A stretch of DNA of 64,000 bases. Origin: Symbiodinium natans. Lineage: Eukaryota > Sar > Dinophyceae > Suessiales > Symbiodiniaceae. Shown here piece by piece: positions 14-64,000 of the stretch; position 1 is the first letter of the stretch; each line of letters begins with the position of its first letter. The stretch is taken from positions 153,874-217,873 of the forward strand of contig CAJNDS010002098.1 of NCBI GenBank assembly GCA_905221605.1, given 5' to 3'. The notes below the pieces were generated by a model. The model saw nothing but the letters and a program-made list of their open reading frames with translations. It ran no database searches and was not told the origin of the DNA. Made by a program: the position numbers and the translations under genes.

Positions 14-143
14 TTACTGCGGTGCTCCCTGGCCTAGGCTTTATGTTCCCTTCATAATTATACTAGTAGAATAACCACCAAAACTTAACCCTATTCTAAT
101 TATTAAGGCCCCTATATTACTGTGGTGCTCCCTGGCCTAGGCT
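14..143. mobile_element. Introner-like insertion flanked by a 27-bp direct repeat
   Basis: Positions 14-40 and 117-143 are the same 27 bases with one mismatch (C at 20, T at 123) and contain GCTCCCTGGCCTAGGC. The 76 bases between them form intron 25-26 of UBA1. The CTAG in each copy supplies the AG|GC donor (minus strand, copy at 117-143) and the AG|GC acceptor (copy at 14-40). The insert ends in AATTATTAAGGCCCCTATA, shared with copies at 40 and 62 kb. Confidence 0.75.
18..33 (-). CDS. UBA1: UBA1 exon 26 (16 bases)
   Basis: Sixteen bases encoding QGAP between split codons, with acceptor CCTAG|GCC and a canonical donor GCA|GTAAGA. It follows a 103-base intron whose two ends are the same 27-bp direct repeat. 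The rest of the gene, including the ubiquitin-fold domain, lies left of the window. Confidence 0.75.
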
Positions 144-3100
144 GGTGGCATAAAGGTTGGCAGCCGCAAGGAGGAAGTCGACGTGCAGCGCGTCGTTGGC
201 ATCGAACTGCGGAGGTTCCAAGTGCGCAACTACGGCGACCCGAGAGCTAAGGCGAGAAACTGGGCACAACAGGGGCCTGTAATGCATCCTCATAAGGTCG
301 TATAAAGGTCCTAGTAAGGTCCTAATATCATTATTTGAGAGTGGCTTTTGCAGTTTGAGCGGTTTCAGGAACTACTGTGGGGCACCGGACTGCTTCCTTT
401 CCGGCGAAAGAGGCTTCCGTTGTTTAGCTTTCGCGGGCCTGCCTCTCAGTAGCATGAAAGCTCGCAGCATGATGTGGGACTGATGCGGGCTTGTGTTTCT
501 GTTCCCCAAGCAAGCCCTCAACATCAAACCTGGAATCTAAGAGGGCGATTGCAGCTCACGAAATATCTCGGAGAGTTCGGCTATGGTTTGAGGGATCGGG
601 GTTTGAGGGATCGGGGTTTGGGATTTAAGGTTCCGGATGTCGAAGCTTAGGGTTTTTTGCTTCTCAGGTTCAGTACAGCTTGCGAAGACCTCCTAAACCC
701 TAAACCCTAAACCCTAAACCCTAAACCCTAAACCCTAAACCCTAAACCCTAAAGGGCACTTTCAAGACTTTGCTTCGACGATTCAGCCCATGCCTTGATC
801 GGCGCCGGCGGACGCTTTGGTCCACTCCAGAACTTGGTGCCTTCGGACGTGACCTGATACTTGGGATGTTCCCCCTTATACTAACAGCTCCTTAATGGGG
901 ATTATAGTACCCCCCCCCCCCCTATAGTCCCTGTGAATAAGGACTGTTCGTATAAGGGGGAACATCCGACCTGATACCATCACGTACAATCCTTGCGATC
1001 CCAATAGCCCGACCCAAAGCCGAAAAAAACCCAAATCTGCCACCCACCTAGGTTCGACTTGCAGTCGCACTTTGGTGACTGGGGCTCCGGGTGATGCTTC
1101 TGCGAAAGCAGCCAGCTTCGGGCTCGGAATCGTTTGAGCTGGTTGGCAACTGGTTGACAGTGCTTGGAACATCTTGGAAGGATCTCGGTCATAGAAGTTG
1201 GACCCAGTCTGCACATCAAGGTCGCTCATGCGGGGTGCCTGCAGGGTGCTTCAGGCGCAGGCGCTGAGAATACCTTAAGCCACAGACCTGAAGAGTAGAC
1301 CTTCTAAAGTCAAAGAGAGTAGGACTCAGAATCATTTGCCAAAAAGGAGCCTATGCATCCTATGCCCAATGCCCGCATGCCTAGAACCTTGGAAGAGCCG
1401 TAAGAGCTTCGGCAACCCTTTTAACGCCATTAGCGTTTGTAGAGGCTTTCAGGAATCTGTCCCGTGAATCTTTCAAGTGTTCCGCCAATAAGGCCCCAGG
1501 CGTGATCCAGCGGGAAGGTGTGGAGCAGCTGCACGATGGAGTCGTGAAACCTTTGCTTCAGCTTCAGGGACTTTGAGCCTTCGGTTCTGAACTTCACGGG
1601 GGGGCGCTCCCAAAATGTTTCTAGGAAGCCTTAGCCTTATCGCAACCTAGGATGCCCCTCACTCAGAACACATACGGACGTCTGGAGCAGAACTTGGAAA
1701 CCGTATGCTACTCACATGAGTGCCGGTCCAAGAGCTACTCAATGGGCAACAAATCCAGCAATCATGTGCGACTGTTGTTGTCATCTTCTGAAACTAGAAT
1801 ACATAGGTAGGGGTCAGGTTGTTTACTCATGCTGTTTCTGGACGCTTGGGACGCAAGCCCGACCTGCCAAAACACAGCCAAAGGCCCTTGCTCGCGACTT
1901 TTTGCTATGATGCCGAGCTAGTACAGGGGCGACGGACCGAGAAACATTCCTCATGATGCTGGGCTTTCACAACCTCCTTTCGGCTAAAGTCAACCCCTCC
2001 GACCTTTTCGTGATGCTTTAACAAAATCCCAACACAACCCGCAACAACCCGCACCTTGCAGCGCTAGAAGACGTAGTTGCTGACGCATGCCTTGGGCCGC
2101 CACTTCTCCTGGAACTCCATCACTGCATACTCGGCACACGCGTCGAAGGGCTGCTTGCGCTGGCACGAAGCACGCTGTCAAGGTGCGGGGTTGGGGATGT
2201 GGAGCGTACAGTTATGGGGTCTGTGGTTCAAGCGGATTCAGTGGTTCTCAAAATAGTGACCCAACATGCATTTACCTTCGGCGAACCATAACCCTGCGAG
2301 AACTTCAGAGACATCGAAGGCAGTTCGTTAAGGGGTATAAGGAGGGACCCCTAGAAGGGACCCTTAGTCTTATTCAAAACCCCTACCTTAGATAGTCCCT
2401 AGAAATCTAAGAAGCCCCGAAGTAACCCCTAAAGAACCTCTCAGGCCCCTTACAAGGGTCCCTCCTTTAGTCCCTTGAGTTTGGGGCTTGGGGGAGGTTT
2501 GGGCCCTACCTTCTGCAGCATTTGCTGGAGGGAGCGCAGGCGCTGCACTTGTGACGTGCCGGAGCCCATGGAGGGCACCTTCTTCAAGTACCTCTTCAAT
2601 GCAAGAGAATCTGAGTTTAGGGTTTAGGGTTTAGGGTTTAGGGTTTAGGATTTAGGGGACTCTGGGGTTCGCGGGCTCAGGGCTTTAGGGTATCTTGGGG
2701 AACTGGCTACGGTTTCTTCAGAAAAAGACTTGAACAGGTCTGGGCTTTGACGATTTGAGAACTTGAGAGCTCGAAAATGCCCTGCGCGATTCGATAAAGC
2801 TTTAAAATCACTGAGAACCCTGCAAGCACGCTGCAAATCAGATTCAAGCTGCTAAATAGCTCCCGTAAAACACGGAAGGGCCATGCAATCAGTTGAAGTC
2901 GCACATACAAACACAAACCCTAAACCCGAAACCCCAGCCTCAAACCGCGAATCACAAAATCCTGCCAAACCTTCCGCGGCATCCCCTCAACACCTCGAAT
3001 CCAAAGCCTCAAAGGCACTATATTGACTATAGCCCCCAAGCAGATTGAATACACTGCGCAAACCGGTGCAGCAAGCCAATTATTCAAGACTCTTGATGTA

Positions 3101-4260
3101 AGTTCAGCCGCCGGGGCTCGGACAGGTTCAGGACGACTGGTGGTCGTTGTTGTGCCGGGTGGGCTATTGTTGGGTGCATGCCGGAACTCATGCCAAATTG
3201 CACTCGAAGCCCAAAGCCCTAAACCCCAAACGTCCTGAACACCTGAAGCCGGAACTCGACCCTGCAAAAAGAGGTTGAGGACGCATATGCCAACAACCGG
3301 CAGGGCACGACTCCGGGTCTTCGAGGAAGTTGTTTCCCTGCGCATCAGGAACTTGCATAATCCCTGCAGTACTGTGTTCAAAACTTAGAGTGCCTCGCTC
3401 TTCGGAATGCCAAGACGGAAGAGACAACTTAGAATCTTGGGCTGCGCAGTCGCTCGTCTGTAAGGCACCCTTCAAAAACCGCACGAATAGGCGCACCTAC
3501 GTGATTGCAAAGCAAAAACAGGTGCAAGAGGGTCGAACGCGTTTTTTCTGTGCGGTCGCTCATGTTTCGCGTCTTAGGCATCCGACAAAGCACCCGAATA
3601 GGCTCTATACGCGACCGCGGAGCACACAAAACACATTCGGTGATTATAGGGTCATGGATCGCCCATTCTAAAGCCCATGTGTACCCACTCAATTCCTCAA
3701 ATTAAGCTTGAGCTTGGCTTCCTAGTGGCACTGTTGCCGAGCACGCTGCAGATCCCAGTTGGCTTCATTGCTCCACTGTGGCATAAGCCCCAAAAAGCCT
3801 CAAGCCTTGAGGCCTGGATGCCTTAGCAAGAGTCAACCACTCAACTTGCGGCTCTCCACGAGCAGAAGCCGTGAACCACATCTTAACATACGCGGGGGCG
3901 CGGAGCTTCGGGCAATCACTATTGGAAAAGAGGACTCTCTTGCTTCTCTCTCCAGAGTCCAGTTTCTGGGGTCAGCATTCTGAAAAATGGTGGGCCGGGG
4001 TGGGGTGGGGGGGTCACACTACTTCAATAATATGCTGTTCCGGCAACAGTTCCGGCAAGATCTCGTGCTATACTGGGGCTTTGACAACAGGCCCACTTAC
4101 ACCGCACATTCACCCCAATACCTGAACCCTAAACCGCAGAACGAAACCTTGAAAACGCGCCAAAACAAATCCAAGGCATCCCCGGAATCTAAACCCTCAC
4201 ACTGTCTCTGTGTGTGTGTGTGTGTGTGTGTTTTCGTGTGTGTGTTTTCGTGTGTGTGTT

Positions 4261-4292
<32 letters not shown>

Positions 4293-4332
4293 TTCGTGTT
4301 CGTGTTCGTGTTTTCGTGTTCGTGTTCGTGTT

Positions 4333-4368
<36 letters not shown>

Positions 4369-7300
4369 CGGAAGATGTGCCGTCCTCGCGGGGGGTCTCC
4401 ACAAAGAGCTGCTCGAATGCCTCCCGTGCCTTGGTGTAAATTATTCCTGGGGTTTGGCGGTTTGGCCATTAGGGTTTAGGGTTTTGGGTTAGGGGGGATG
4501 TTTCCGGTATACTTTGGCAAGGTTTGAGGTCAATGTGCGGTGTCAGGACTCTAGAGGCCGTACGCTGGACCCATACAAGAAGTTATCGGACGGCCGAGGC
4601 ACCCGAGAGAAGCCTCAGCCCGAACTTGAGCTTGGCCCTCAAGCCTTAATCTTCTAACCCCAGACCCTCAAAAGGCTGCTTCCTGAACTTTCTATCCCCA
4701 GACTTCAGACATCTTCAAACTGCAAAGCTTCACAAGCTCAACAAGGGCTCTAAACCGCCCACGCCCTTGCACTTTATAGGATCTTAGGATCTGTAGTTCA
4801 GCATCATCGCTTCTTAAGCGCTGTCGTAGAGTAGAGATGCGCTGTCATCCTAACGAGCTCCTGAAATCTCAAGAAAATGAAGTGGCCGGGTTCGGGCTCG
4901 TAGCTGAGGGGTTAGGGTTTGGAGGTGTACGGTTTACTGCGAAGGCTTCTATAGACTCCTCACATTTGGATCCCAGAGTTCAGGATAAACCTGGCTCCCG
5001 CTTCACACTGAACATGGCCAGCGGCCCACTCGATGGTGTGCTCGATGGCATTCGGGAAGTGCTGGACGAGAGGCAAGAGCGTGTGGAATCAGTCTCAAGC
5101 TTAAGCTACTGAGTTGCATAAGCCGCAAGGTCCTCAAACTCAAAAGCACTCACAAGACCCAGAAGTCCAAATTCCTCAAAGGCCGCCGAGCCGGAGAACA
5201 GCCAAAACCCCAAGGCCTGAACCCAAAGTCGAGCCACCCCCTACACCCCTCAAAGGCTTCTAGTTTGTTTAGAGAGGGCTTGAGTCGCCCCTTTTGGTAT
5301 GAAGAATGCAAACATTCACATTATTAAACTCGCTATCATCCATCAGCTCATATGTAATATATATGTACGCTGCACGATATGCGCAGTATAAAGGTTCAGG
5401 GTACTTCGGGGGGTCGTGGTGGCACACGAACCCCCAGTTCGTGAGCAACACTCTCGCACAGGATGACATCGCCTAGAGCTTCCATGCCTGGGTTCGTGTC
5501 TTGGGAAAACATCGAAACGATCCAAGCCCTGAGCCCCACATAATTCTCGGTGCTGGTGGGGCCGAACCCTACGTCAGTCACCCGCTCTCAACATGAAGGC
5601 GCCTTGACGGTACAAAGCGGGATCGACTCCTCTGGAGGATCCTCCGTCAGTGATGCCAGATGCGGTGAGGCTTAGACCACAAACCAACTCAACTAGGACC
5701 TAAAACAAGGGAGGGTTTGAGACCGCTAATAGGGGTGCATATAAGCCACGGCTTTTGTTGGGCCCTCCGCTACGCCTTTGCTGCAGGAAACCTGGTGCCC
5801 CGAGCCTGCGAGTCTCCGTAGGACTGCGTCATCTTCGGCCTTTAGTGTCAAGCCACGGATGACAGGAGCTGCTGGGTCAACGTCCGCTTGTGCTAAGCTG
5901 CAACATGTTTCTGCATGGATGCGGGCCCGGAGCCCTTCTCACAAGCCTAATCCGCCTCGAAGTACTCAGAACCATGCCTTCGAGGGTTGAGTTGGTATGG
6001 CGTTGAAGGTTCTACAACACACAGAACATTGGACGTATCTGCTATATTGGACTATATCGCAGAGCCCGGAACCTAAACCAGGAAAATTAGCTAAAGTTGC
6101 CGCTGCCCTCCTACCACACACACCCAGATCTGGGGCTCACGCAGCACCACCTGCACATTGGCTTTTGTACCCAGCCTGCAGGAGACTACAACAAGCCGGG
6201 CAAGAAACCAAAACCGACAAAACAAAACCGGGAACTCCTGGAAACAATGCTCATTTATGTTCTGTCTGTCAATTGTTGTGTTGTTTTCTGGTTTTCTTTC
6301 TTTGTGCTGGTGGGCTTTGTGTTTTAAATTTCCATACCTACGTGAGACAAGTCATGAATGCGCAAAAAAAGGCAAGGGGGGATACCCGCATGCCCATATA
6401 AAAGGCATATATGTATATTATGTATACATAATATATATATATATATATATATGTATACATATGATCAGGGTGCGCCCGTTCCCCTCTCTCCGCCCCATGG
6501 TGCCCCTGGTGCTGTTGTATCCCCCCACCTGTGGTGCTTGTAGATTGGGATAAGTTCAGGGCTTTGAGTTTTGGGTGGAGGTTAGGATCTGGGACAAGGG
6601 TCTCGGGGGAAATGTGGTTGTGGGGTTCTGGGATTAAACTCAAGGGTTCAGGCTCAGGACTATGGTTGCAGGCTTTTTGGCAAAGGGGTTAGAGCTGGGG
6701 CTTTCGGGCTTCAGGGGGAGGGCCAGAACCTCCATTTGACCAAGTGCAGGTTTCCACGGCATCCTTCTGGTCTGAGGGATCTTGAAGGGCTTCGGTTTCA
6801 TTCAGTTCTGAATCCCACGCGCTAGACAGCTCTCTGCAGGTCCAGTGCTTGACATGCCCATCGCCAGAAGGCGCGCGCGCGCGCGCCGTTCTAAGAACTG
6901 CTGCAACTCCTGTCGAAACCTTCGAATTTTGGGGAGTTTTGCTCGGCGTTTGTGGTTCATGCCCCTGAGCCCTCAACATGCCCTAAACCCTAAACCCTAA
7001 GCCCTACATCCCTAAACCCTCAAGGTTTCCAACCTGGTCCATCCTGAAGCTTCCCTCCACAGCTGGCACGATTAGGGCCCGGGCGTCCCGGACTCCAGGA
7101 GCGGCTTACTAAACCACACGCAGCGGGAGTCCACGTACATGCGGGCCTGTGGGGGAAGCGGGGAACGGGGGTGCGCGCTGAAGTGGGTATGTTTCTTGCA
7201 GAGCATCATGGAGAGGAGGATGCATGGCAGGTTTTGCCGGTTGGAACGGGAAGAGGGGAAGCAGTGGATCGACATCCAGGACGCCATCTCCGAATGTTTA

Positions 7301-10300
7301 AAGGAGCCGAGGCTCCAAAGCTGTGAGCCTGGAAGCCAACATCTAAGGATATCCAAGGCCAGCAAAGCCCCCCAAGCCCCAGAGCCTAAACGCCACGCCC
7401 GAAACCCCCCAAGACTTTGACGCCTGGATGTTGTCGAGAGCATTGACCACGCAGTCCAGGCTATCCCAGAACTCGTCGTCAAAGGTGTCTTCTGTGTCTG
7501 GCCCCACGCCTCAGGCCGCTCAAGCCCGTTCAAGTGGACAGAGGATTTGATTAAGAAGGTTTTGAAGGTTTCAGGACTGGGGCTCAGTGGGACTGCTTAT
7601 GTCTAGGGCCCCATAGGGGCTGGGCACTCCGAGGGCGAGCATGTCATGCTTTCCGGACATCTCAGAAGCGCACCCGAGACAGAAGAGACCACATATGAGG
7701 CGTCGGCCCAAACCACCCCCCCTAAGCCTCAAATTGTTTCTCATATGGGCTGGCGGCGTCTTCTCTCTGCTTCGTATGCTTTTCCAGTTTTCTTCTCTTC
7801 CTATGCCTATTCCGCTCAATTCGTCCGGGTGCGTTTCAGGATAAGCAGAAATCCGAAGTGCTTTCCCAGCGGCCTGGAGCAATGTTACTTTAGAGCTTTG
7901 TAGGGTTGAACTGGTTCCAAAAGCTTAATAAAGTCGTGCGCGAATGTTCACAGTCTGGTGTTTTAGGGTCATGGGGCTTGGGGCTTGGGGGCTTAACCCG
8001 AAGCCCTAAACAACCACACTGAATCACTGAAGGCAAGGGGCGTACTTCCATAGCTTCCACCTTCAGGTCGGCGTTCATCGCCTGCTTTTTTAAAGCGGCT
8101 TCTGGGCTTTCAGGCGCATCTTGAGGGTTTGCAGGTGCAGAGGAAACCCTAAACCCTAAACCTCTTTTATCGATACAGAAACCTCTCTAGCCATGCCGTA
8201 GTCGTTGCTTTGGAGGGCACCTCGCTCCTTCAAAACGCCGTTGCAACCCATTGAGGTGTGGCCACCGTCTTACAAGCAGGCTCTAAGTGGGGCTTCTTCC
8301 GTGTGTGCTGCGTGTCCTTCCGACAAGACGTTTTTGCTTGGTAGTTTGCTTCATGTCTGCACAAACATCAATGCTACAGAAGACACTTTCGGGGCACCGA
8401 GGCAGAAACGTGGGAGAACTGCATTGAAATCTTAACCTACACACCAAGACCCTCATCCTCAACATTCAAACCCGAAACCCGAAACCCGAAACCCGAAACC
8501 CTAAACCCTAAATCCTAAACCCTAAACCCTAAACCCATGGGCGGAAGCATCCCAGAGGGCTCTCTTTGCAGGCTTAAGAGCACCCTGTCCTTGGCAGCCC
8601 GCGCCGCCACCTGCGATTTCGAGCTGCCGACGTCCGTCCTCAGTAGGGAATGGATGGGTTTTCTATAGGGCCCCTAATTCCCTCATTCCCTACTAAGAAC
8701 CAGGGGAAAAGGGCTCTCAGGTTTTCAGATGCACATAGGCGCACTCAGCTTAGCAACTTTGCCTGTGTGCTCAGCTTTGAGAGGCAGAAAGAATAGCAAT
8801 GCAGTGGTACCAGAACCAAGTGCAGGCGCTGGCATTAGCGCGTGCTCATAAGTCTTTTGAGCTCTCTGGCCAGGGAGCCTCTACAGCCAATCCTAAACCA
8901 CTCAAGTAGTTCTGGGCCTTCGGGCTTCCTTGTGTTTAGAGTCCCTAGGCAATCCCACAAACCCTAAACCCTCAACCCGCAACCCTAAAAACCCCTAACT
9001 TCGCGGCATGTTTTGGCTCGAGGTGTTCCGGGTCAGTGGTGCCCGTGAGGGATTTCGGGTTTTGTTCCCTAAGCCCTTAACGGTACTTCCAAACTTAGAC
9101 CTGGCACCACACCACATTCCACGCTGGGCTTCATGGGATCTGTCGAGGTTTAACAGTCTACTGGGGTAATCTTTGCATAGTCAGCAGGCTGTCGATGCAA
9201 GGCAGCCATGCTACTTGGCAGGTAGAACATTAAGCCCCAAAACCTGCTGCCCAGCGGTGCCGCCAGGAATTCCGGCGGCAGCCGGTCGTTTGCAGGCGCT
9301 CATTTTCTGCGGCGATCTCGCACTGAAAAAGGTTGGTGGCATGGAGCTTGGAGTTTTCGGCTTGAAAAGCGCGAGGGGGTTCAGGTTTTTATGACTTCAA
9401 GGCTGAAGGCTTAGCATTTTGGGGGTGCAGCCGGTGTTCTGGGAACTTAAAGACTAAAGTAACTAAAGCAGCATTACTTGAGGACCTCGGGTAGCCCTGG
9501 GGGTGCAGGGGGTGTTCTGGGAACTTGAGACTAAAGTTACTGAAGCAGCACTTTGTTACTTCGGCTGAACTCCAAGCTCGGCCACTGGTCGGAGGGCGCA
9601 CCCCCGTTCATCCTTGCTCTTGTGCCCAGCATTCTTTTAGCTGCATCCAGGCCTCGTCGGCGTGCAAAACAGCATCGTTCGATTCCTGCAAACTCTTGAG
9701 CAAATCACCACGGACCCCACGCTCGCCAATCTGTCGTTGTTGTTGCAGGCTGTGATCCGCTGAAGAGCTACGCTGAGCTCGGGCGAGAAGTTCATGGCAA
9801 CCTGTACGAAAGACAAGAAATGCGAGTTCTGCCGGCTTGGCGTCTGACATGCTGCGGCGTTACAGCTATAATTGAAAGCACCAGTGCATGACGGATGTGG
9901 CGACGCAATCCTTTGTTTACTGGGCTGCCATTCTTAGGCATCTTGAACCCCTGAGTCCGAGGCTGCCCTTCTCCAAGGCTTCCCATCCCTCTTGATCTGA
10001 ACAAACAAAGCCAACACTGAAAGAAACTGCGGGTTTGGGAGATCATGCACAAGTTCTGCATGTTGGCTCTCGAAATCTGCGATGCCTACGACGATGACGA
10101 CGATGAAGAGGAGTCGGAATCGGAGCCTGGGTCGACGGGTGCAGGCTTTAAGAGACCAATGCGCCGCACTACGCATCTCCTACGGAGGTTTACGATATTA
10201 GGGGGTGCCCTATTGGGGTTCTTATTATAAGGGGATCCCACTATCTGGGGGTGCAGATTAGGGGCCCCTTATTCTCGAAAATCCCCACTGTATACAGCAC

Positions 10301-12253
10301 CCGTGATTCCTTCAAAGAGGCCCCCCCGATTTGAAAGGAAATGTCGGTCTCGGTTCGGACGAAGGGTTTGCTCTAAGAACCTGAAAACTCGGTTCGGGGG
10401 GGGGGGGGGGCGGTAGACCTTCACGAACGGTGCCCCGCTGTCACACAGCAAAACTTCTCAGAAGTTCAGCTCGGTGGTGGAGTTTCTCAACCAGAATGGG
10501 GATCCTGCTTGGCATGGCTGTTTAAGTGATGAAGGGTCTCAGGAAAGGACCAGTCTTCCAACCAGAGTGTAAAAGATAAGAGGCCTACACTCTAAGCCCT
10601 TCAGCCAACACTCGCATGCTACAACCTTCAGCAATCGGCCACCAATCTGCGATTCTTCGTCGCAATGTCAAAATTTGCCGCAAGCCCCCAAACCCTCCAT
10701 TTTGAGACCGGGCTGCTAAACTACAAAGATCTGCGAAGCCTCGAAAATTATCAACGCCTCACCCAACCTTTCCACAACTCTCAGTCCGGCGCTTTCTGGA
10801 TCCGATGCGGCCTGTCCGGCGTAACACAAGCCCGACAGTAGTTACTTCAGTCTGAAGAGAACCTATTCTGTAGAATGTTTGAGAGCTCATGTTAAAAAAA
10901 CCAAAATAAAACAGGAATATCAGCAGGCTTGACGGGGATTAGGGAACAGGTTTTCAGTCGGCTTGAGTGGCTAGAGGGTCCGCGAAGCACGTGCGCACGC
11001 TGTACGCTGAAGGAAAAGGAAGCGTGGCTTAGGGCATGGGCCGCCACACTACAAACATAACTTCAAACACATCTCTTGCCTCATCCTTGGCGTCCTTCAG
11101 AGACAGCCTCGGATGACAAACAGTACTAGGCGGCAAAGCTATGGGTGCTGAGCCTCCCAATCCTGCTGAGTGGCACTCTCCTTGCAGTTGTGCCCATTCG
11201 TTGAAGCACTTCACGGGCCACCTGCCAGAGGTGCACTGAGCAACGGCTTAAGCGTGCAGGGCTTCAGCAAAGCTCAGCAAAGTGATAAGAGTAACCCCCC
11301 TCAACAAATAGAAGTCATGGGGGGGAGGCAACTTAGGAGGGGGGGGGGGGGGGGTGGCTTAAATAGGGTCTATTTGGAAGCTGAGAGTCGTGTTTTGGTG
11401 TGGTAGATAGAAAGGAAAGGGCATGATAAAGTAGCGAGAGGAGCTCTTCAATTCCCTTCCTTATCTCCTATGCTCTTTTCCTTCTTTATTGCAACAGGAG
11501 AAGACAGGAAAAGGGCTTCCATTCCCCACTTGTTCTTCCTTTCTTGTGTTTTTGTCATTTAGAGGGGAACAGGAGAAGAGGAGGGAGAGAGAAGGAGAGG
11601 GGAGAGAGAACAGGAATCCAATTTCAGTGGAATAGCAAAGAAAAGAATAGAAGAGAGATGAATAGAGAAGAGGGAGAGACAAAACGAGGCGCTGAGAAGA
11701 TGGCACTCTTCTTTATCTATCCTATCTCCCTTATCTCCTTTACCTTCCTAGGCTTTATCATTCAAGTTCTTTTCTTGTGTTTTATCAGTTAAACGGAAAC
11801 AGAAGGAGAGAAGGGAACGGGAAGTGAGAGAGGAGAGACAAAAAGGAGGCCATTTTAATTTTCTGGAAGGGTACTGAACAGAAGAGAGGAGACAAGAAAC
11901 AAGGAGACGGAGGAACACAACAAGGCGCAAAGAAGATGGCACTCTTCTTTATCTATCATCTCTCCCTTCCTTGTCTCTCCCTTTTCCCTCTATTATTAAA
12001 AAGGACAAGACCTCTTCGCAGATAGGTGCCCTCTCTCTTCTTCAGGAAGCCCCCTTGCCCTTATTTTGCTTGCCTTCTGAAACGACAAGGAAAACAACAC
12101 ATAGAAAGAGAGGAAATGGAATGAACCAATAGGCAATGGAGCTCTTCAATTTCTTTCCCTATCTCTTTTCTTCTTTTTTCATTCTTCATTCAACAAGGAA
12201 AAGAAGCTTCCTTTTGTGTGTTTTTGAGATTTAAAGGAGAACAAGAGAAGAGA

Positions 12254-12301
<48 letters not shown>

Positions 12302-15300
12302 GAGGAGAGATCAAAAGGAATGCAACTCTAAATGGAAGAGCAATGAAAAGAATGGAAGAGAAATGAGGACAGGCGAAATGCAAAAATCAGGCAAAGAGAA
12401 GACGGTGCTCGTTTTCATCTTTCCTCTGGTTCTTATTTTTCTCTTCTCTTGTTCATTTCCGTTAGAAAAAACAAAAGGAATAACAATGAACATGTAAGCA
12501 AACCCAGCTGATGCTCATGATTTTTTCCTTTCTCCCTCTCTCTCTCTCTCTCATATATGGGCGATGGAACGGGTGTCCTTGTTGGGCCGTTTCCTGCATC
12601 TTCAAGTGAGGAACCTAAGTGTTTTCTTTTGTTCGTTTGAAGACACAGAAAGCGATTAAAAGGGACGTCCATTTTGGATTGGCAGCCAACCTCTCTCTCC
12701 CTATATATGGGCGATGGAATGGGTTTCCTTTTTGATCGTTTTCTGCATCTTCAAGCGAGGAAAAGGGACACCCCATAAGAAAGCACTTAGGGTGTCCCTT
12801 TTGCTCGTTTGAAGACACAGCAAGCGATCAAAAGGGACGCCCATTTTGGATTGGCAGCAAACCCAGCTGATGCTCATGATTTCTCTCTCTCCCCATATAT
12901 GGGCGATGGAACGGGTGTCCTTCTTGGATCGTTTTCTGCATCTTCAAGCGAAGAAAAGGGACACCACAAAAAAACACTTAGGGTGTCCCTTTTGCTCGTT
13001 TCAAGAAACAGAAAGCGATTAAAAGGGACGCCCATTTTGGATCGGCAGCAAACCCAGCCGATGCTCATGATTTATCTCTGTCTATATATGGGCGATGGAA
13101 CGGGTGTCCTTCTTGGATCGTTTTCTGCGTCTTCAAGCGAAGAAAAGGGACACCACAAGAAAACACTTAGTAAGGGTGCCCCTTTTGCTCGTTTCAAGAC
13201 ACAGAAAGCGATTAAAAGGGACGCCCATTTTGGATCGGCAGCAAACCCAGCTGATGCTCATGATTTATCTCTGTCTATATATGGGAGATGGAACGGGTGT
13301 TCCTGATCGCTTTCTGCATCTTCAAGGGAGAAAGAAGGGCACCACCCAAGAAGGAAAAGTAACATCAGATATAGGGAGGGAAATTGAAGAGCTCCTCTCT
13401 TTACTTAGTCATTCCCTTTCATCTCTTCTTATCTGTTGTTTTCTTCGCTTCAAAAAGCAAAATAAGGGAAAAGAGATTTCCTGAAGAGGAGGGAGGGCAC
13501 CTATTGAAGAGCTCCTGTCTTTACTTAGTCATTCCCTTTCCTCTCTTATCCGTTGTTTTATTCGCTTCAAAAAGCAAAATAAGCGAAAAGAGATTTCCTG
13601 ACGAGGAGGGAGGGCACCTATCTGTAAAGAGCAATCGTTTAGAGGGGAACAGGAGAAGAGGAGCGAGAGAGAAGGACAGAGGAGAGATACAGGGAATCCA
13701 ATTTCAATAGAACAGCAAAGAAAAGAATAGAAGAGAGATGAATAGAGAAGAGGGAGAGACAAAACAAGGCGCAGAGAAGATGGCACTCTTCTTTATCTAT
13801 CCTATCTCCCTTATCTCTCCCTTCCCTCTTTCTTTTCGAAATAAGAACAACTAAAGAGGAAGAATTTATGAAAAGGAGAAGAGTAAGGAAAAGAGCAGAA
13901 GTAGGCCGAGAAGAGGGACATGATGAAGTACGGCAAGGTCCAAGCGCAAGGAGTCACCCTCTGCTTTACCTTCCACTGCTTTATCATACAAGTTCCTGTC
14001 TTGTGTTTTATCAGTTAAACGGAAACAGAAGGAGAGAAGGGAAAGGGAAGTGAGAGAGGAGAGACAACAAGGAGGCCATTTTAATTTTCTGGAAGGGTAC
14101 TGAACAGAAGAGAGGAGACAAGGAACAAGGAGACGGAGGAACACAACAAGGCGCAAAGAAGATGGCACTCTTCTTTATCTATCATCTCTCCCTTCCTTGT
14201 CTCTCTCTTTTCCCTCTATTATTAAAAAGGACAAGACCTCTTCGCAGATAGGTGCCCTCTCTCCTCTTCAGGAAGCCCCCTTGCCCTTATTTTGCTTGCT
14301 TTCTGAAACGACAAGGAAAACAACACATAGAAAGAGAGGAAATGGAATGAACCAATAGGCAGTGGAGCTCTTCAATTTCTTTCCCTATCTCTTTTCTTCT
14401 TTTTTCATTCTTCATTCAACAAGGAAAAGAAACTTCCTTTTGTGTGTTTTTGAGATTTAAAGGAGAACAAGAGAAGAGAAGGGAGAGAGAAAGGAGAGAG
14501 GAGAGATCAAAAGGAATGCAACTCTAAATGGAAGAGCAATGAAAAGAATGGAAGAGAAATGAGGACAGGCGAAATGCAAAAGTCAGGCAAAGAGAAGATG
14601 GTGCTCGTTTTCATCTTTCCTCTGGTTCTTATTTTTCTCTTCTCTTGTTCATTTCCGTTAGAAAAAAAACAACAGGAATAACAATGAACATGTAAGCAAA
14701 CCCAACTGATGCTCATGATTTTTTCCCTTCTCCCTCTCTCTCTCTCTCCATATATGGGCGATGGAACGGGTGTCCTTGTTGGGCCGTTTTCTGGATCTTC
14801 AAGTGAGGAACCTAGGTGTTTTCTTTTGTTCGTTTGAAGACACAGAAAGCGATTAAAAGGGACGTCCATTTTGGATTGGCAGCCAACCCAGCTGATGCTC
14901 ATGATCTCTCTCTCTCTCTCTCCCTATATATGGGCGATGGAACAGGTGTCCTTTTAGATCGTTTTCTGCATCTTCAAGCGAAGAAAAGGGACACCACAAG
15001 GAAACACTTAGGCTGTCCCTTTTGCTCGTTTGAAGACACAGCAAGCGATTAAAAGGGGCGCCCATTTGGATTGGCAGCAAACCCAGCTGATGCTCATGAT
15101 TTATCTCTGTCCCCATATATGGGCGATGGAACGGGTGTCCTTTTTGGATCGTTTTCTGCGTCTTCAAGCGAAGAAAAGGGACACTACAAGAAAACACTTA
15201 GTAAGGGTGCCCCTTTTGCTCGTTTCAAGACACAGAAGGCGATTAAAAGGGACGCCCATTTTGGATCGGCAGCAAACCCAGCTGATGCTCATGATTTATC

Positions 15301-18300: not shown

Positions 18301-18827
18301 TGCAAAAATCAGGCAAAGAGAAGATGGTGCTCGTTTTCATCTTTCCTCTGGTTCTTATTTTTCTCTTCTCTTGTTCATTTCCGTTAGAAAAAACAAAAGG
18401 AATAACAATGAACATGTAAGCAAACCCAGCTGATGCTCATGATTTTTTCCCTTCTCCCTCTCTCTCTCTCTCCATATATGGGCGATGGAACGGGTGTCCT
18501 TGTTGGGCCGTTTCCTGCATCTTCAAGTGAGGAACCTAAGTGTTTTCTTTTGTTCGTTTGAAGACACAGAAAGCGATTAAAAGGGACGTCCATTTTGGAT
18601 TGGCAGCCAACCCAGCTGATGCTCATGATTTTTTTTTCTCTCTCTCTCTCTCTATATATGGGCGATGGAATGGGTGCCCTTTTTGATCGTTTTCTGCATC
18701 TTCAAGCGAGGAAAAGGGACACCCCACAAGAAAGCACTTAGGGTGTCCCTTTTGCTCGTTTGAAGACACAGAAAGCGATTAAAAGGGACGCCCGTTTTGG
18801 ATTGGCAGCCAACCCAGCTGATGCTCA

Positions 18828-18858
<31 letters not shown>

Positions 18859-20876: not shown

Positions 20877-20912
<36 letters not shown>

Positions 20913-21086
20913 ATATATGGGCGATGGAATGGGTGTCCTTTTTGATCGTTTTCTGCATCTTCAAGCGAGGAAAAGGGACACCCCACAAGAGCACACTTAG
21001 GGTGTCCCTTTTGCTCGCTTGAAGACACAGAAGGCGATTAAAAGGGACGCCCATTTTGGATTGGCAGCCAACCCAGCTGATGCTCA

Positions 21087-21132
<46 letters not shown>

Positions 21133-34720: not shown

Positions 34721-34752
<32 letters not shown>

Positions 34753-34830
34753 GTCTTGCTTGCTGTCTTGCTTGCTTGCTTGCTTGCCTGCCTGCTTGCC
34801 TCCTTGCCTGCTTGCTTGCTTGCTTGCTGT

Positions 34831-34867
<37 letters not shown>

Positions 34868-35108
34868 CTGCCTGCTTGCCTCCTTGCCTGCTTGCTTGCT
34901 TGCCCGCTTGCTTGCTTGCTTGTTGTCGTGCTTGCTTGCTTGCTTGCTTGCTTGCCTGCCTGCTTGCCTCCTTGCCTGCTTGCTTGCTTGCTTGTTGTCG
35001 TGCTTGCTTGCTTGCTTGCTTGCTTGCTGTCTTGCTTGCTGTCTTGCTTGCTTGCTTGCTTGCCTGCCTGCTTGCCTCCTTGCCTGCTTGCTTGCTTGCT
35101 TGTTGTCG

Positions 35109-35140
<32 letters not shown>

Positions 35141-35218
35141 GTCTTGCTTGCTGTCTTGCTTGCTTGCTTGCTTGCCTGCCTGCTTGCCTCCTTGCCTGCT
35201 TGCTTGCTTGCTTGCTGT

Positions 35219-35255
<37 letters not shown>

Positions 35256-35384
35256 CTGCCTGCTTGCCTCCTTGCCTGCTTGCTTGCTTGCCTGCTTGCT
35301 TGCTTGCTTGTTGTCGTGCTTGCTTGCTTGCTTGCTTGCCTGCCTGCTTGCCTCCTTGCCTGCTTGCTTGCTTGCTTGTTGTCG

Positions 35385-35419
<35 letters not shown>

Positions 35420-50400: not shown

Positions 50401-52864
50401 CGTTGTCCCATCGCACGCTTTGATCAGATGCTCATCTTTCCGAAAACCATCCCTTTCAGAGACCTGACGCATCTCGTCCTCTTCTTCTGACAACTGTCGC
50501 AACCTCTCAGCCTCCATCTGTAGGATCTCCTCCTCCCCCATGGCGTATTCAGCAGCAGGTGCAGCTTCAAAGCTGTCCGCACCCTTCTGTTCGTGACCGC
50601 TTCCACCACCTTGGGAACTCGAAGATGGATCCCTTTTGATCTTGTTCAGAGGCCTCCTGGCCGCTTGCAGCACTTCTCCAATCAGATCGGTCTGAGACTC
50701 TTGGTCTACCATTCGACCCGAAGTCGAAGTCGACGGCTGATACCCGTGTTTGTGCAACACTCGTAAAACAGTCACCTCCATTTCACGATCTATACCACCA
50801 GTCGCGTCCCAGTTCCTTTTCTCACCAGGCTTTGGCGATACAGAGACAGCACGTCCTTCAGCTTCAGTATTGCTAACCATATCCACATTGGGATTCATAC
50901 CCACATTGGGGCTTTCTGCAACCAAGGCTTCTTCCAGATGTTCTTCAGCGCCGGGAATCACCTCTTCCAACACCGATCTTTCACCCAGAGACTCAGCTGC
51001 ACCATTTCCAGCTCCACCATTTTGTCCACCATCCGAGGCAGGTTGGAGCCATCGCTTCGGAGAAGGCATTGCTTCTTGATCCCAAAGATCTTAAGACAAC
51101 ACTCAACCGCAGGGAACCTAATTTGGGCTCATAACCTACGGGGGGACAACCAAGGAAGGAAATCAACTCCCCTAATCGCCCTGAACTTATATTTCCCAGA
51201 TCGAACCAAGAAACAAACAAGAACACGGATAAGAGCAACCCAGGGGGGAAGGAAAGGGGGAAGGAATCCACACCCTTACCAAACCCTAAGAACCCAGGCA
51301 CTACTTTTTGAACTTGTGGCTTTCTGTTCAAGCCCATCTTGAGCCAAACATGATTTCCGGGTTCATTAACCCTTCCAACTCTCAACACTAACTCTTTTCT
51401 ACAATACCAATTGCAGCTCCGCATAGGGTTTAGGGGTTTAGGGAATAGGACTTGGGGAAACACCAAGACCTTCAACCTCAACCAGGAGGCCCTCCTGGGC
51501 CTGAAAACCCTTAGGTTGGCCCTGGAAAATCTCACCAATATTCCCAAGAGCTAATCACCATGTAGACGCTAGAAAAACATGTAACTCAGGAAGCTCTAAA
51601 TTTATTCAACCTAAACTGCCAGGGGTTTGTCGAGTTGTCGCAACAGCGACCAGGGAGCCTCTTAAACCCATTCAGGGGAAATGTAAAAACTTGAAGGGCC
51701 CATCCAGACACCCCAAAGCCTAAATGCACACCCTAAACCCTAAACCCTAAACCCTAAACCGCTTTGGGGATATTTAGTAAAGTACCTTGGGGGTACCAAG
51801 TTGATGAGCAGTTCTCTGCCCAAGCGAGGGCGGCGACCCAGTGACGCCGCCAAAACCTTACCGGTGCTTGGGGGAGGGTGGGGCGGGGGGGGGAGGGGGG
51901 GGACTTTAGGTAACATTTTAAGGTGTAAATATGGGGAGTATATATATATGCGCCTGAGACCTTTTCGGGTTCTTTCGGCTGTTTTTACAAAGGTATCTTA
52001 AAATATACGATACATGAATCTTATTCTATTTCTCTTGCCTATATATTCCTTCATGGTTCTCGTTTACTGGATATGCATCCTAACAGAAAACATCTCTACA
52101 GTGCTCGCTTCAAATTTTTAATGCTTCTTGATGAAAATGTTTCTGTAAATGCTGTTCTGTTTTCCCCCGCCTATATATTCCATAGTGATTCTCGTTTATT
52201 CGATATGCATCCTAGCAGAAAACATCTCTACAGTGCTCGTTTCAATTTTTTAAACCGCAGCTGGGAGGTTGCACTGGGGCTCCTCTGCCTGACAAGTTTT
52301 TTTTTAATGTAAAAATCGTGAGCCGTGAGGCTGCTCTTCTCCTTAGACATTCGTGACGACTCATCACGTTAGTACATGTTACCTTGTTTCATGCCCAACC
52401 TCCATACCCACTCGACAGGTCATCGTGGCTGTGCGCAGCATAGACTCGTACATCGAGCAACAGAATATATGCTCAGTGAGCTGCGAAACAAATAATAATA
52501 GGTATGTCGATTGAGTAGTCGACCCTGGTGAAAACATCATCGCGACACACTGGGCAGCGCATAGCTACCACAGTTCTAAGATGGCTTGTGAACTGATCAC
52601 TTCGAGCAACAGAATATACATTGTTTAAGTTAAATTCATGGGCCCCGAAAGTAAATCAAATAATTTAGATAATTCGATTGCGGTATTTAAAGTACTTAAA
52701 TTCTAAGGCTCGGAAAATAATATAAATGACTTAAAATAATATAAATGACTTAACTGTTTTAATTCTTCAATGCGTTCTATAAATATATAAAGAAAACAGG
52801 TAGCAACATAGCACATACAAAGGTCCCTCCCTCTCTCTCTCCCTTTTTTTATATATACACATAC

Positions 52865-52895
<31 letters not shown>

Positions 52896-55800
52896 TATAT
52901 ATATATGAAAGAGCAGCCTTTCGGGTCTATTTAGCTCATTCCTTTTTTTAAGAAGTATTTAAACGATTTAAACGATTCAAACGATTTAAACGATTTAATT
53001 GAGTCCAATTAAATCGTTTAAATCGCCCAGGCCAATTAACTTATTGAATTCAGGCGTCCGGTTTAAACGATTTAATTGGACTCAAATAAATCGTTTAAAT
53101 CGCCCAGGTCAATTAAATTGTTTAATTCAGGCGTCCGATTTAAACGATTTAATTGGACCCAATTAAATCGTTTAAATCGCCCAGGCCAATTAAACTATTT
53201 AATTGGCCTGGGCGATTTAAACGGTTTAATTGGTTGGTTTATGGCTTGACTGGGTCTCCCCCCCAATTAAATCGATTTAAACGATTTAAAAGATTTAATC
53301 GATTTAAACGATTTAATTGAGTCCAATTAAATCGTTTAAATCGCCCAGGCCAATTAAACTATTTAATTCAGGCGTCCGATTTAAACGATTTAACTGGACC
53401 CAATTAAATCGTTTAATTTGATTAAATCGTTTAAATCGATTTAATTGGGGGGGGAAACCCAGTCAAGCCATAAACCAACCAATTAAATCGTTTAAATCGC
53501 CCAGGTCAATTAAACTATTTAATTCAGGCGTCCGATTTAAACGATTTAATTGGACTCAATTAAATCGTTTAAATCGCCCAGGCCAATTAAACTATTTAAT
53601 TGGCCTGGGCGATTTAAACGATTCAATTGGTTGGTTTATGGCTTGACTGGGTCTCCCCCCCCAATTAAATCGATTTAAACGATTTAAACGATTTAATCGA
53701 TTTAAACGATTTAATTGAGTCCAATTAAATCGTTTAAATCGCCCAGGCCAATTAAACTATTTAATTCAGGCGTCCGATTTAAACGATTTAATTGGACCCA
53801 ATTAAATCGTTTAAATCGATTAAATCGTTTAAATCGATTTAATTGGGGGGGAAACCCAGTCAAGCCATAAACCAACCAATTAAATCGTTTAAATCGCCCA
53901 GGCCAATTAAACTATTTTATTCAGGCGTCCGATTTAAACGATTTAATTGGACTCAATTAAATCGTTTAAATCGTTTGAATCGTTTACATCGTTTAAATCG
54001 TTTAAATCGTTTAAATCGATTTAATTGTGGCGAGACTCCACCCCCTCCCCCCTCCTCTCCCCTCCACACCCCCCCCCCTCCCCCACCCCCGCTGCCCCCA
54101 CCCCCCCACACCCCCCCCCCCCCCCCCCCCACCCCCCCCCCTACCTCCCCCCCCTACCCTCACCCCCCCCCTCCAACCTTTCCCCAACCCACGCGCCCTT
54201 CCCACAATTCACAACATTCACACCACTCGCACCTAACCCATCCTACCCCTCCTCTCTCACCCTTTCACTCCAAGCTATTAACCTGAAGTTATCATAACTA
54301 TGATAACCTCAGCTTCCCCATCATGAGTTATCATAATTATGATAACTTTAACTTCCCCATCATAAGTTATCATAATTATGATAACTTCAACTTCCCGATT
54401 TGAATTATCATAATTATGATAACTTTAAGTTCTTAATCTCAGAGTATGATAATTATGATAAGTAACTTTTCATAATTATGATAAGTTATCATAAGTTATC
54501 ATAATTATGATAAGGTATCATATAGGGCGTCCGCCTATTGCGGTTCCCCTTATTTTTTTATAGGTTACATAAATGTATATAGTTTAAACCCTAAACCATC
54601 GTCATAACCACGGCAACAAGTCGATGATGATGTAGGCGCCCCTAACCTATAGGGTTAAGTTTGACAGGTTTAGGGCTTAAGATTGAGGCATTTAAACGTA
54701 AGCCCGCAATGAAACCTAAACCCTATCCGTTCAACCCGATAGAGTTAAGGTTAAGCGGTTAGGGTTTCAGATTTAGGTATTTTTAAACTTTAAACCTAAA
54801 CCCATAGAGATTTAACCTTAAGGGTTTAAAGTTCGGGCATTTAGACCTTAACCCTGTTTTCGTTTAGGGTCAGAACCCTAAAGCCCGATAGGGCTCTGCA
54901 AGGAACAAAGGTTTTGACCCTAAAGGGTGCTGAAGGTATACATGCCCAGACCTTATGTTTTCTTGAACCATTGAACCCTACAGGGTTTAAAGGCTTAGGG
55001 TTAAAGGTTTGGGCATTACCAATACAATAGAACCTTAAAGCCCTATAGGGCTTCGGGCTTAAATCCCTAAACCTTAAATCCCATAGGGTTATGCCTACGT
55101 TTGTAGGGCTTTCGTCCCGGTGACGCGAGAATACTGTGAGCAAACGTCCTTTCACTACTTCCTGGGATTCAAAATATACACAAACCATATCGTCATATGA
55201 TAGAATTCAGGTTTTGCTTATCGGGGGATGGTTGCTTGGGATATCTTAGCCTACGTAAAGTTTTTAGGATAGAGGCTTTGTTTTGCTTATTGGGGCGTGA
55301 TGGGGTTACCCTCATTGTCTTATAGCTTATTTACATGGATATAAATCAAACCCGGAACCCTAGTTATAACCGCAGCAAAAAGTTATAACCTTGTCATATA
55401 CAAAAACCCAAAGCTAAATACACCCTAAAGGCGGCGGGCTCATATATATATATATATATACATACATACGCACACACACACACACCATTTTAGGGGTGCA
55501 CTCCCCCACTCCCCCCTAAGCACGAGTAAGAGAAAAAACAGAAACTCGGAGTACACCCATTGCACGTCTTTAGGCGCATGGGTTGAGGGGTCTACAAGGT
55601 GCAGGGCTTCGGGTACCCTACAATAAACCCTCAATCTAAACCCTAAAAGCACCCTAAACCCTCAAAAAACCCTAAACCCTAAAACAAACCCTAAAAAACC
55701 CTAAACCCCCCAATCCCTTCTCCTGCAGGGACGCCTCGAGCTGCCCCAGCAGCTGGGAGAGACCTTTTGAGCCACCGAAGGGCCATGGCACTTCGAGGTC

Positions 55801-58800: not shown

Positions 58801-58990
58801 CTTGGCTGGCTCTGGGCTATGGACCGCTGTCTTTCGTATGCCTTTTTGTGGCAACCATTGTCCCAACACACCCTGCTGGCTCCCCGACCTTTGACAGGTC
58901 TTTATGCGACACCCTCCCCAGCCAGCCAGCCAGGCAGCCACCCACACACGCGCAAACGCGCGCACACACGCACACGCGCACATGCACATG

Positions 58991-59027
<37 letters not shown>

Positions 59028-62000
59028 CTGTATATATGCATATACACAGACATACATACATACATACATTCATACATACATACGAACAGACACACACACA
59101 AACAAAACCAGATCCAGCAAGAATCACGTAGCCCGCCGCAAAAAGCAAAACCCTCCGATCTTGAACTCCAAAAGTCCGAACGTGGCAGCCCTTGAACAAG
59201 AAATCCCAAGCTCGCTGCTGGCGGAACAAGAACTGCCGGTTCAGGTTGGAGATCTGCCAACCAAAGCGGCTTGGTTTGTTGGTCAGTTAAGCTTTGCAAA
59301 GTGGGTGTTTCTCCCAACGATCCCTAACAGATATCTGCAGTTTCCTGGAGTGCCCCCAGATCTTGTGCCCACCTGTCAGCATCCCACGAGATTGAACCTA
59401 TTGAACACCGCATGGGTACCGGACAAGTGAAAGATCTGCTGCTGCAGGGCACTCCAAAGCACACCCGCAAAAACTACGATCACATCTGTGATGTCTATGC
59501 GCGTCGTGCTGTTCCTTGGAAGCACCATCTCCAAACGATTCCTGGCACTCCCACGCCCTGAGGACTTTCGGAATGCACGTCACGAATCCGAGAGTGCGCA
59601 TGGCCTATCAAAAAATGGGATTGCAGGGCATGGCAATCTTTCTCCATCGCACTTTTGAACCCCAAGAGGAAAGCGCTTCATCGGGGGCTTGCAGCTTACA
59701 GGAGGGCTTCAAGGCCTTCTGCTGACTACAGGCCGAGCCTGAACCTTACATAAACATCAGACGATTGAAGCCCACGCTGCGCCTCTATCCTGTCCATGTC
59801 AGTGACGACGACTTTGCCACTTCCGCAAGAAGCTCCGATCCTGGGCATCACCACGGGCTGCGGGTTTGAGCGGGGTATTGCTGGCCAAGGCCCCCGAAAG
59901 GAGGTCCAGCAGCAAAGGAGGTCCAGCAGTATGCTGAAGTTATAGCTCCACCCTTCACTTCTCTGCATTGCACCGCATGTCACGAGTGCTAATATGCTAC
60001 ACCGAAGGAGGATGAAGCAGTAGCAAAGAAATCCCTCTGAAAGAGAAACGTAATACATAATATATAATGTACAATATAAAATGTAGAACGTAAAATCTAG
60101 AATACATAATACGTGATATATAGCATATACAGCATAATGTATAGTACAATACATGAATAGCATAAAACAAACTACAATACAGATATCCAAATGTATATTA
60201 TATAGATCTATTCACTCAATAAGATAATATTCTAGAATACCTTCAGCAAGTGCCAAGTCAAAGCCTCCTCGTTGGGCAACCGCTCTGACAAGGCCATGCC
60301 GTGCTTGAGATCGCACGTACAGCGACGTTTCCCACGTGCACACACACACACAAACAAACATACGCACAGAAAGCATGCACACAAACAGCACATGCTGAGC
60401 ATTGCTGAGCTAACTCTTGAGCTGAATGCTTAGCTAATCTCAGCCAGGTCTCATCGCAAAGCTCTTCAAGAACTCGCAACCTAAGGCCCCCGCACCTGGG
60501 CTAAGTACGGTGAAGGTCAAGGGCTTCAAGCATGAGACTTGAATCAGATCGATGGTTGACGAAGCTTCCGTAGCTTGTGTCTGCTCATCTCTGCTCTCCT
60601 CCTCTCGCTCCGGGGTTAGCGATGCCTGCAAGCACGGAAGAGCTAAGAATGTGAAGGCTTGAGATGACTCAAGAGGTCTGCGTGGCCTGGGTGAACTGAA
60701 GGCTCCGGGATTTGAGGGAAAGCCATTGCCCTGCAATCTCTGAGACCACGGCCGACCAGGAAAAGCTTCATGTTCGAGATCGCCTCGGGTGGATTGAGGA
60801 CAAGACAATTCGATTTGTGGCTTTGGGGGACAGGTTTTCGTCGTTTGGGTCGCACCCGAAAATGCGACGCACCACGTCAGGAAACTGAACCCCAAGACTC
60901 CATGCTCGTTGCAAAACATATCTGCGCCTTGACCCGCTAAACAGCGCAAGCCTATGCATCAGATTCGCATCGAAAGTGAATCTGCAGGTTCAACCGAAGT
61001 CTCAGAAAAACAAAAGACTCTTTGCCCAGCCTGCTGGATGGCGGACCCAAAGATGGCAATCTGGTCGTCGAAGCGCGTACCTAGAGGCCTCGTGCTTGAA
61101 TGGCTCCCTTCAGTATAGCTCTCAAACCTGAAGACTGATAGGATTGGGAGGCTTTGGTTTCAAAAGCGAGGGTTTAGAGGAAGGAGGGAAAGGCGGCTAG
61201 GGATTTGCAGGCGTTGTGCATGGGCGAGAGCTGCAGGCCAAAGCTCCAGCGACCCCAGGTTTGTGATCGGGGGGTTTGGTGCTCTGGATTTTGAAGTTCA
61301 GGCAGTTGTGGCATTCCTGATGCGCGGGCTTATCCTTCGCCTTAATGCTTACGCCTGGCTTGACACACACGCCAAGCCTCAGAGCCTAACATCTCAAGAT
61401 GCTCGGAGCTTCACGAAACTCGAGCTGTCAACTCCCCAGATGAACACCCAGCCTAAGCCCTAAACCCTAAACCCTGAACCCTGAACCCTAAATCCTAAAC
61501 CCTCACTCAACCCTGAACCCACCCTATCAGACCCACAGCGTGATCGGGCCCCTTGCTGCCAGTCCGGCGGCTCTGAAGGCGGACAAAGCTCAAACCTCGG
61601 GGGAAACGTGAAGCCGCGAAATGGGGCAAGGACTTCTTTGTCCCTAGGGTTTAGGGTTTAGGGTTTAGGGCCTAAAGTGTAGGGTTAGGGTTTAGGGCTT
61701 AGGGCTTCTGCATCCCCTTCCTGCCTTTCTTCGTTCTTAGATTCTTTGTCCAGAAGCCCGCTCTACCCCTAAACCCTGAAGAAGGGCAAGCAGTTCCTGC
61801 CTGTCCCCCCGGAGCTTTACGGCTCCGAATGTCAGTAAAGGTTTTGGGGTTCAACTTCCACACTGAAGGGTTTAGAAGTTGAGGCTTTAGGGCTTTCAGG
61901 ATCCACGCTTTAGGGTTTAAACAGGTTTTTTGAACCTTCGGCTTGAGGGGTTGAGCAAGTTCGAGGCAGTTTGGGGATCGGAGGGCTTGGTCTTGAAGCC

Positions 62001-64000: not shown

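Follow-up and report, generated by a model that had tools for sequence, protein, structure and literature searches.

A probable ~50-kb intron in the UBA1 gene of Symbiodinium natans and an LTR-type element family found at one register of TTTAGGG arrays

TRAS and SART are non-LTR retrotransposons of the silkworm that are directed to telomeres. The elements from Symbiodinium natans described here are likewise found at telomere-type sequence; unlike TRAS and SART, they are of the LTR type and come with a 5-bp duplication. Among LTR elements, Ty5 of yeast is likewise tied to telomeres. According to PMC4700185, it is Sir4, not a DNA sequence, that directs Ty5 to silent chromatin, and the yeast LTR elements treated there are guided by host proteins, not by DNA sequence. 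The S. natans family instead occupies a base-precise register of interstitial TTTAGGG arrays. A literature search (titles and the beginnings of abstracts) returned no earlier report of an LTR element with such a target. We consider this family, apparently unreported as far as that search shows, to be the most interesting thing at the locus.

The host gene is conventional in its product. The predicted S. natans protein and the UBA1/Ube1 family (PF00899, PF10585, PF09358, TIGR01408) have the same domain order, nucleotide-binding motifs and catalytic cysteine. Gene structure alone differs, with 56 small coding exons and one intron of ~50 kb or more. A paper search found no paper on UBA1 in dinoflagellates. 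According to Table 2 of PMC10666404, S. natans has on average 15.7 exons per gene, exons of 106 bp and introns of 486 bp; its donors are GC (58%), GT (23.6%) and GA (18.4%), and 97.1% of acceptors are AGG. The review PMC11453091 gives a likewise very long dinoflagellate intron, of 26,372 bp, from Crypthecodinium cohnii. The giant intron of UBA1 is about twice as long, in a host whose introns average 486 bp (PMC11453091, PMC10666404). No longer dinoflagellate intron was found by title or abstract in our literature search, which left subscription papers mostly outside; genome tables may hold such introns. The giant intron sets this locus apart and is notable, though probably not unique.

We analyzed a stretch of 64,000 nt of S. 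natans DNA (the window). It contains the middle of the canonical ubiquitin E1 gene, UBA1, on the minus strand, from exon 14 through exon 40 in gene-wide numbering. Our joint reading of the locus, to which we give a probability of roughly 0.88, combines the UBA1 exon chain, a giant intron that is spliced in cis and has grown by insertion of transposons, and an LTR-type family that uses one register of TTTAGGG arrays.

We identified the exons with a custom spliced protein-to-DNA aligner that accepts GT, GC and GA donors and AG acceptors in three phases, penalizes stops and disallows frameshifts. The guide was P0122, a 1,030-residue E1 from a relative that carries a transcript-collection (MMETSP) name. 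The alignment gave 27 UBA1 exons on the minus strand, from 63993 down to 137, in one frame. All of the following come from the spliced alignment; additional evidence is given in parentheses.

63942-63993, minus strand: exon 14 (start hand-set at AG)
63618-63649, minus strand: exon 15
63394-63430, minus strand: exon 16
62815-62861, minus strand: exon 17
62301-62346, minus strand: exon 18
62025-62080, minus strand: exon 19
61557-61595, minus strand: exon 20
61031-61088, minus strand: exon 21
60753-60783, minus strand: exon 22, strand leading into GxGxxG
60453-60495, minus strand: exon 23, GAGALGCE (motif)
59783-59840, minus strand: exon 24, TDMD (motif)
59219-59253, minus strand: exon 25, upstream border of the giant intron (motif)
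8590-8638, minus strand: exon 26, downstream border of the giant intron
8042-8081, minus strand: exon 27
7424-7509, minus strand: exon 28 (genome DNA search)
7085-7146, minus strand: exon 29
6143-6175, minus strand: exon 30
5806-5839, minus strand: exon 31
5603-5641, minus strand: exon 32, cysteine of SIPLCTVK
5026-5061, minus strand: exon 33
4385-4429, minus strand: exon 34
3309-3337, minus strand: exon 35
2510-2591, minus strand: exon 36
2104-2159, minus strand: exon 37
1502-1550, minus strand: exon 38
794-853, minus strand: exon 39
137-206, minus strand: exon 40

The start of exon 14 (63993) was set by hand at an AG because the aligner continued into Ns, and the readable part of this exon was kept for the window. 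Exons 12 and 13 and the N-covered portion of exon 14 are aligner fill-ins, and the end of exon 11 is doubtful. Exons 12 through 14 are therefore omitted from gene-wide statistics, which cover 55 exons and 54 introns.

Joined and translated, the 27 exons aligned without gaps to P0122 over 434 of 434 residues, with 412 identical (95%). The segment of P0122 scored 1742 on the minus strand compared to 103 on the plus strand and 120 for the reversed protein. Five shuffled proteins scored 106, 132, 147, 144 and 114. The strong evidence for the predicted exon chain is this gapless identity together with the seven controls. The joined translation had no in-frame stop, which is weak evidence on its own, as is the donor mix, because the aligner avoids stops and rewards known splice dinucleotides. 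An earlier model of 26 exons, guided by human UBA1, had one non-AG acceptor and several wrong small exons and was replaced by the dinoflagellate-guided models. A plain tblastn search with human UBA1 was swamped by noise at such exon sizes, and the spliced aligner was used instead.

The product is most similar to UBA1. E1 motifs occur in order on the minus strand (GAGALGCE at 60496, TDMD at 59803 and SNLNRQ at 59250), and the window product covers about residues 343-777 of the 1058 in human UBA1. The first joined version, a chain of 431 residues, matched solved human UBA1 over residues 342-777 (482.9 bits for the whole match; phmmer). Among solved structures, UBA1 (457 bits) scored above UBA6 (385) and UBA7 (380), a ranking by bit score and not by a tree. 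The active adenylation domain matched Pfam ThiF with E=1.8e-54 in the first joined version and 2.7e-60 when downstream exons were included. Similarly, PF10585 (SCCH) was matched with E=1.5e-48 and, over its full profile with downstream exons, 2.9e-85. The 434-residue window part alone scored 535.9 bits against TIGR01408 (Ube1; NCBIfam), covering 431 of 1008 profile positions of a model whose cut-off of 750 bits is for whole proteins. The cysteine of SIPLCTVK aligns with that of human SIPICT, which we take to be the catalytic cysteine of UBA1. The window exons encode the active adenylation domain, together with the stretch that precedes it, and run into the beginning of the catalytic-cysteine domain. 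By inference from sequence, the gene would be functional as a ubiquitin-activating enzyme.

The gene extends beyond the window on both sides. On the same contig we recognized 11 upstream exons (to the right) and 18 downstream exons (to the left, ending in FQFR). With those in the window this makes 56 recognized coding exons gene-wide, and the recognized coding span is ~86 kb. Exons 1 through 11 contain the N-terminal inactive adenylation domain (ThiF, E=5.7e-17), and exons left of the window contain the C-terminal ubiquitin-fold domain (PF09358, E=4.1e-21, 93 of 93 positions). On the contig a run of Ns separates the window from the upstream exons, at the expected place of the FCCH domain. Neither a start nor a stop codon was found in the recognized UBA1 exons; the frame continues past FQFR, so the final coding bit must be in a further exon.

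These results partly confirm a first-pass annotation of the window, made from the letters alone, that had proposed 26 minus-strand UBA1 exons, forming a complete run and hidden below ORF detection. A run of UBA1 exons on that strand is borne out by the E1 motifs, the Pfam matches and the 95% gapless match to P0122, although it has 27 exons and not 26. Phase is indeed kept in one frame, across 26 junctions rather than the 25 claimed. The run is not complete, given the exons recognized on either side. The exons are 29-86 nt long, about 10-29 residues, and not 4-33 residues as had been stated, and in the window no UBA1 exon was found left of 137, whereas the run had been placed from position 18. 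The assignment to UBA1 with its nucleotide-binding motif and catalytic cysteine agrees with the ThiF and SCCH matches, the structure matches and the aligned cysteine. The estimate that about 2% of the window is coding was accurate (1,304 of 64,000 nt, or 2.04%). So was the description of exon borders as AG and GC, GA or GT: all 27 acceptors are AG, and the donors are GC (19), GA (4) and GT (4). Joining, translating and comparing the exons, as the annotation had proposed, matched ThiF and the E1 SCCH domain, with 434 gapless residues against P0122. This match to E1 spans the whole window part, but not an entire E1 (about 343-777 of 1058 in human UBA1). In this species GC and GA donors are the norm, as are exons of around 100 bp, so hidden exons are by themselves unsurprising. 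The annotation says nothing of the single intron that fills most of the window.

The donors, together with the AG|G acceptors in 23 of the 27 window exons, are broadly like those of the species, a likeness to which the bias of the aligner applies. The sizes and numbers are untypical of S. natans. Gene-wide, exons average 49.4 nt (55 exons), about half the species mean, and their number exceeds the mean more than threefold; introns average 515 bp (53 introns, excluding the giant one). The pre-mRNA would be spliced in cis, mostly at GC-AG introns that are about 0.5 kb long.

One intron is of a different order. It and the assembly gap that it contains are:

8639-59218, minus strand: giant intron 25/26, 50,580 bp on the scaffold including 100 Ns of unknown true length, with a GC donor and an AG acceptor
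16401-16500, no strand: assembly gap of 100 Ns, inside the giant intron

The intron takes up 79% of the window (50,580 of 64,000 nt) without a recognized UBA1 exon and is ~100 times the species mean. It splits a glutamine codon (CA|G) just before TDVG, and the flanking residues are identical to those of P0122. We infer that it is spliced in cis.

The gap affects how this length is to be read. According to the description of the S. natans assembly, it was scaffolded with transcripts by L_RNA_scaffolder, which, as its method is described, inserts 100 Ns where the intron implied has at least the median length. UBA1 is the only gene known to bridge the gap, so the join probably rests on a UBA1 transcript. 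If the join is based on a transcript, the argument for one gene is partly circular, and the length of the intron is a lower bound.

Several other explanations of the locus have to be weighed against one cis-spliced gene. The halves could lie at different loci, with the giant intron an artefact of the 100-N join; the gap does lie inside the intron, with repetitive sequence on both sides. However, the two halves share a strand, are collinear and phase-compatible (CA|G), and meet in the protein with no overlap or lost residue. The gap is also of the type that fits a transcript-guided join, which would itself be evidence of one transcript. Even unjoined, the contig sides of the gap have 42.7 kb and 7.8 kb without UBA1 exons. 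We consider a misjoin to be very unlikely. It is more improbable still that the 5' and 3' halves are separate transcription units, either joined in trans or making two proteins. What points in that direction is that two public proteins of relatives begin one exon past the giant intron: P0010, from Symbiodinium sp. CCMP2592, with MNADLK, and P0036 with MEVRVG. These starts might reflect gene finders stumbling at large repeats. In contrast, 1,030-aa E1 proteins of relatives, at least one of which (P0122) has a transcript name, are 94-95% identical to the gene product, and P0122 and P0003, which both bear transcript names, are continuous across the giant-intron junction. (The query that returned these proteins included a few residues from an older upstream model.) Moreover, neither half alone is a full E1, because the nucleotide-binding motif and the catalytic cysteine are encoded on opposite sides of the intron.

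We give the least credence, next to none, to the idea that this is a decaying copy of UBA1 with a working copy elsewhere. One intron is heavily loaded with transposons, as might be expected of such a pseudogene, but the match over 434 residues is gapless at 95% and key residues are kept. In addition, a DNA search placed the 86-nt exon 28 (7424-7509) at a single site in the genome. The other E1-like loci that were found, one on each of two other contigs (C1764 and C2) and each in small exons, are diverged, distant paralogues. A single cis-spliced UBA1 gene with a giant intron would be a clean test case of how exons of 35 and 49 nt are paired across ~50 kb by a spliceosome able to use GC, GA and GT donors.

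The giant intron would owe its length of ~50 kb or more to mobile insertions, of which we recognized an AT-rich tandem element and an LTR-type element. The AT-rich element was delimited by self-comparison:

11352-22981 (bounds approximate), no strand: AT-rich block of nested ~2.26-kb tandem repeats

It is a dispersed, high-copy element: scoring 24 of 686 candidate places gave at least 396 matches genome-wide, the best of which are 95-97% identical. Elsewhere it often occurs as neighboring copies.

The LTR-type element lies at 41201-51423 in the same sense as UBA1, and has the following parts.

41196-41200, no strand: target site duplication TAGGG to the left of the element, within ...GGGTTTAGGG (from the flank sequence)
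41201-41487, minus strand: LTR copy A, the 3' LTR in element sense, 287 nt with 1 mismatch to copy B
41969-43347, minus strand: LINE-like insert of 1,379 nt nested in the element, with a T run at 41969 on the plus strand
43484-51090, minus strand: remains, in several pieces, of a long CCCH/MLLE frame, which in another copy (locus L064) is open without a break over 2,617 aa
51137-51423, minus strand: LTR copy B, the 5' LTR in element sense (from self-comparison)
51424-51428, no strand: target site duplication TAGGG to the right of the element, at the start of TAGGGTTTAGGG (from the flank sequence)

The LTRs are direct repeats that lie 9,936 bp apart and are identical at 286 of 287 positions. 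In several other copies the two LTR starts are ~8,557 bp apart; the 1,379-nt LINE-like insert accounts for the greater length of the window copy. This insert is flanked by a 14-bp duplication (41955-41968 and 43348-43361) and is missing from the three other copies compared. One of these three, on contig C1745, carries a separate large insert. A frame in the LINE-like insert, 42006-43718, presumably resembles RNase H; neither Pfam nor PDB supported this, and the 14 proteins found match 19-22% of the frame. Beside the 5' LTR, GGGCTCATAACC resembles what we take to be the anticodon arm of initiator tRNA-Met and is a candidate primer site.

The element has hallmarks of LTR retrotransposons, that is, near-identical direct LTRs and a 5-bp target site duplication. 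Its termini in element sense are TG...TA; the window element lacks TG...CA. The intact 2,617-aa frame has an MLLE domain, and a simple scan picked out six CCCH-type motifs; neither Pfam nor a simple motif scan found a reverse transcriptase or integrase in this frame. With no recognizable reverse transcriptase or integrase, the family looks non-autonomous, and we call it only LTR-type. Genome-wide, 40 LTRs were scored of 1,321 candidate places, and all 40 are 99-100% identical; judged by its sequences, the family is young.

We found that members of this family sit in a single, base-precise register of TTTAGGG arrays, TT^TAGGG, in either orientation, with a 5-bp duplication. The 40 scored LTRs represent 28 elements, 12 of them as pairs and 16 as single ends. 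The outer ends of 38 of the 40 LTRs, from 27 of the 28 elements, abut repeats of the TTTAGGG or CCCTAAA type; one element lies outside such arrays. At least half of the flank was telomere-type for 34 of 40 LTRs, compared to 3.1% of 41,930 28-mers drawn at random in and around the window. At a threshold of one quarter, the numbers were 38 of 40 and 9.4%. The duplication was exact in 10 of the 12 pairs (TAGGG nine times and CCCTA once). The other two pairs had TAGGG/AAGGG and, at a non-telomeric site, TTCGA/TCCGA.

The same register was apparent genome-wide with exact patterns. The start of the LTR occurred at 429 places, 214 of which were preceded by inner sequence of the element, leaving by subtraction 215 outer left ends. 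Of these, 187 were at the exact register (124 after TTTAGGG and 63 after ACCCTA). From the other 28 we picked six, and all six lie in degenerate TTTAGGG-type repeat in the same register. The right end of the LTR was followed by TAGGG at 162 places, a raw count without a denominator. Backwards control patterns for these LTR-end searches gave no matches.

These arrays are plentiful in the window and in the gene. We counted 80 matches to TTTAGGGTTTAGGG with at most one mismatch in the window, compared to 0.09 expected, and TTTAGGG or CCCTAAA is present in 25 of 54 UBA1 introns. Because they occur in many UBA1 introns, the arrays can act as landing pads.

It is likely, in our judgment, that this is a young, non-autonomous LTR-type family (~215 copies by exact LTR ends) with a CCCH/MLLE gag-like protein, that it inserts with base precision at TT^TAGGG, and that it inflates genes such as UBA1 through arrays in introns while leaving exons unharmed. 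An integrase supplied in trans by an autonomous partner would act on a TTTAGGG array, either reading TTTAGGG directly or being tethered by a protein that binds telomere repeats. Cuts staggered by 5 bp around TAGGG would give the duplication. In UBA1, the LTR-type element would have landed in a TTTAGGG array of the intron and later taken the LINE-like insert. Alternatively, the element might make or carry the arrays instead of choosing them as a target, since arrays lie beside nearly every copy examined. We think this unlikely. Array length and repeat variants differ between copies, some copies lie in degenerate repeats, and both orientations occur. Furthermore, the 5-bp duplication fits the register of the array, and many introns without an LTR element also have arrays. 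If insertion at TT^TAGGG is correct, the family links interstitial telomere-type arrays, safe havens for transposons and the growth of introns in dinoflagellates, and it offers a sequence-addressed integration system for study.

Similarity between UBA1 introns is largely due to the TTTAGGG arrays. We also considered an origin of the introns from introner elements and rejected it: an 8-nt inverted repeat near the ends was found in 1 of 54 introns, compared to ~0.7 expected from mismatched ends.

The giant intron contains other frames and repeats. Scans of the window for tRNAs and Rfam families found none, and there was no Pfam match to two minus-strand frames in the intron that were considered as possible nested host genes, of 237 residues (37241-37954) and 347 residues (39008-40051). 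The first of these adjoins 33.5 copies of TAAAACCC (37956-38223, 99% matches), a telomere-like 8-mer. A 1.2-kb array of TGCT-type repeats at 34341-35551 is open in several frames on both strands (SKQA and LLAC repeats). Finally, 52957-54024 contains AT-rich, self-complementary repeats (TTAAATCGT units, with a 397-bp tandem at 97%), followed by a C-rich run to 54174.
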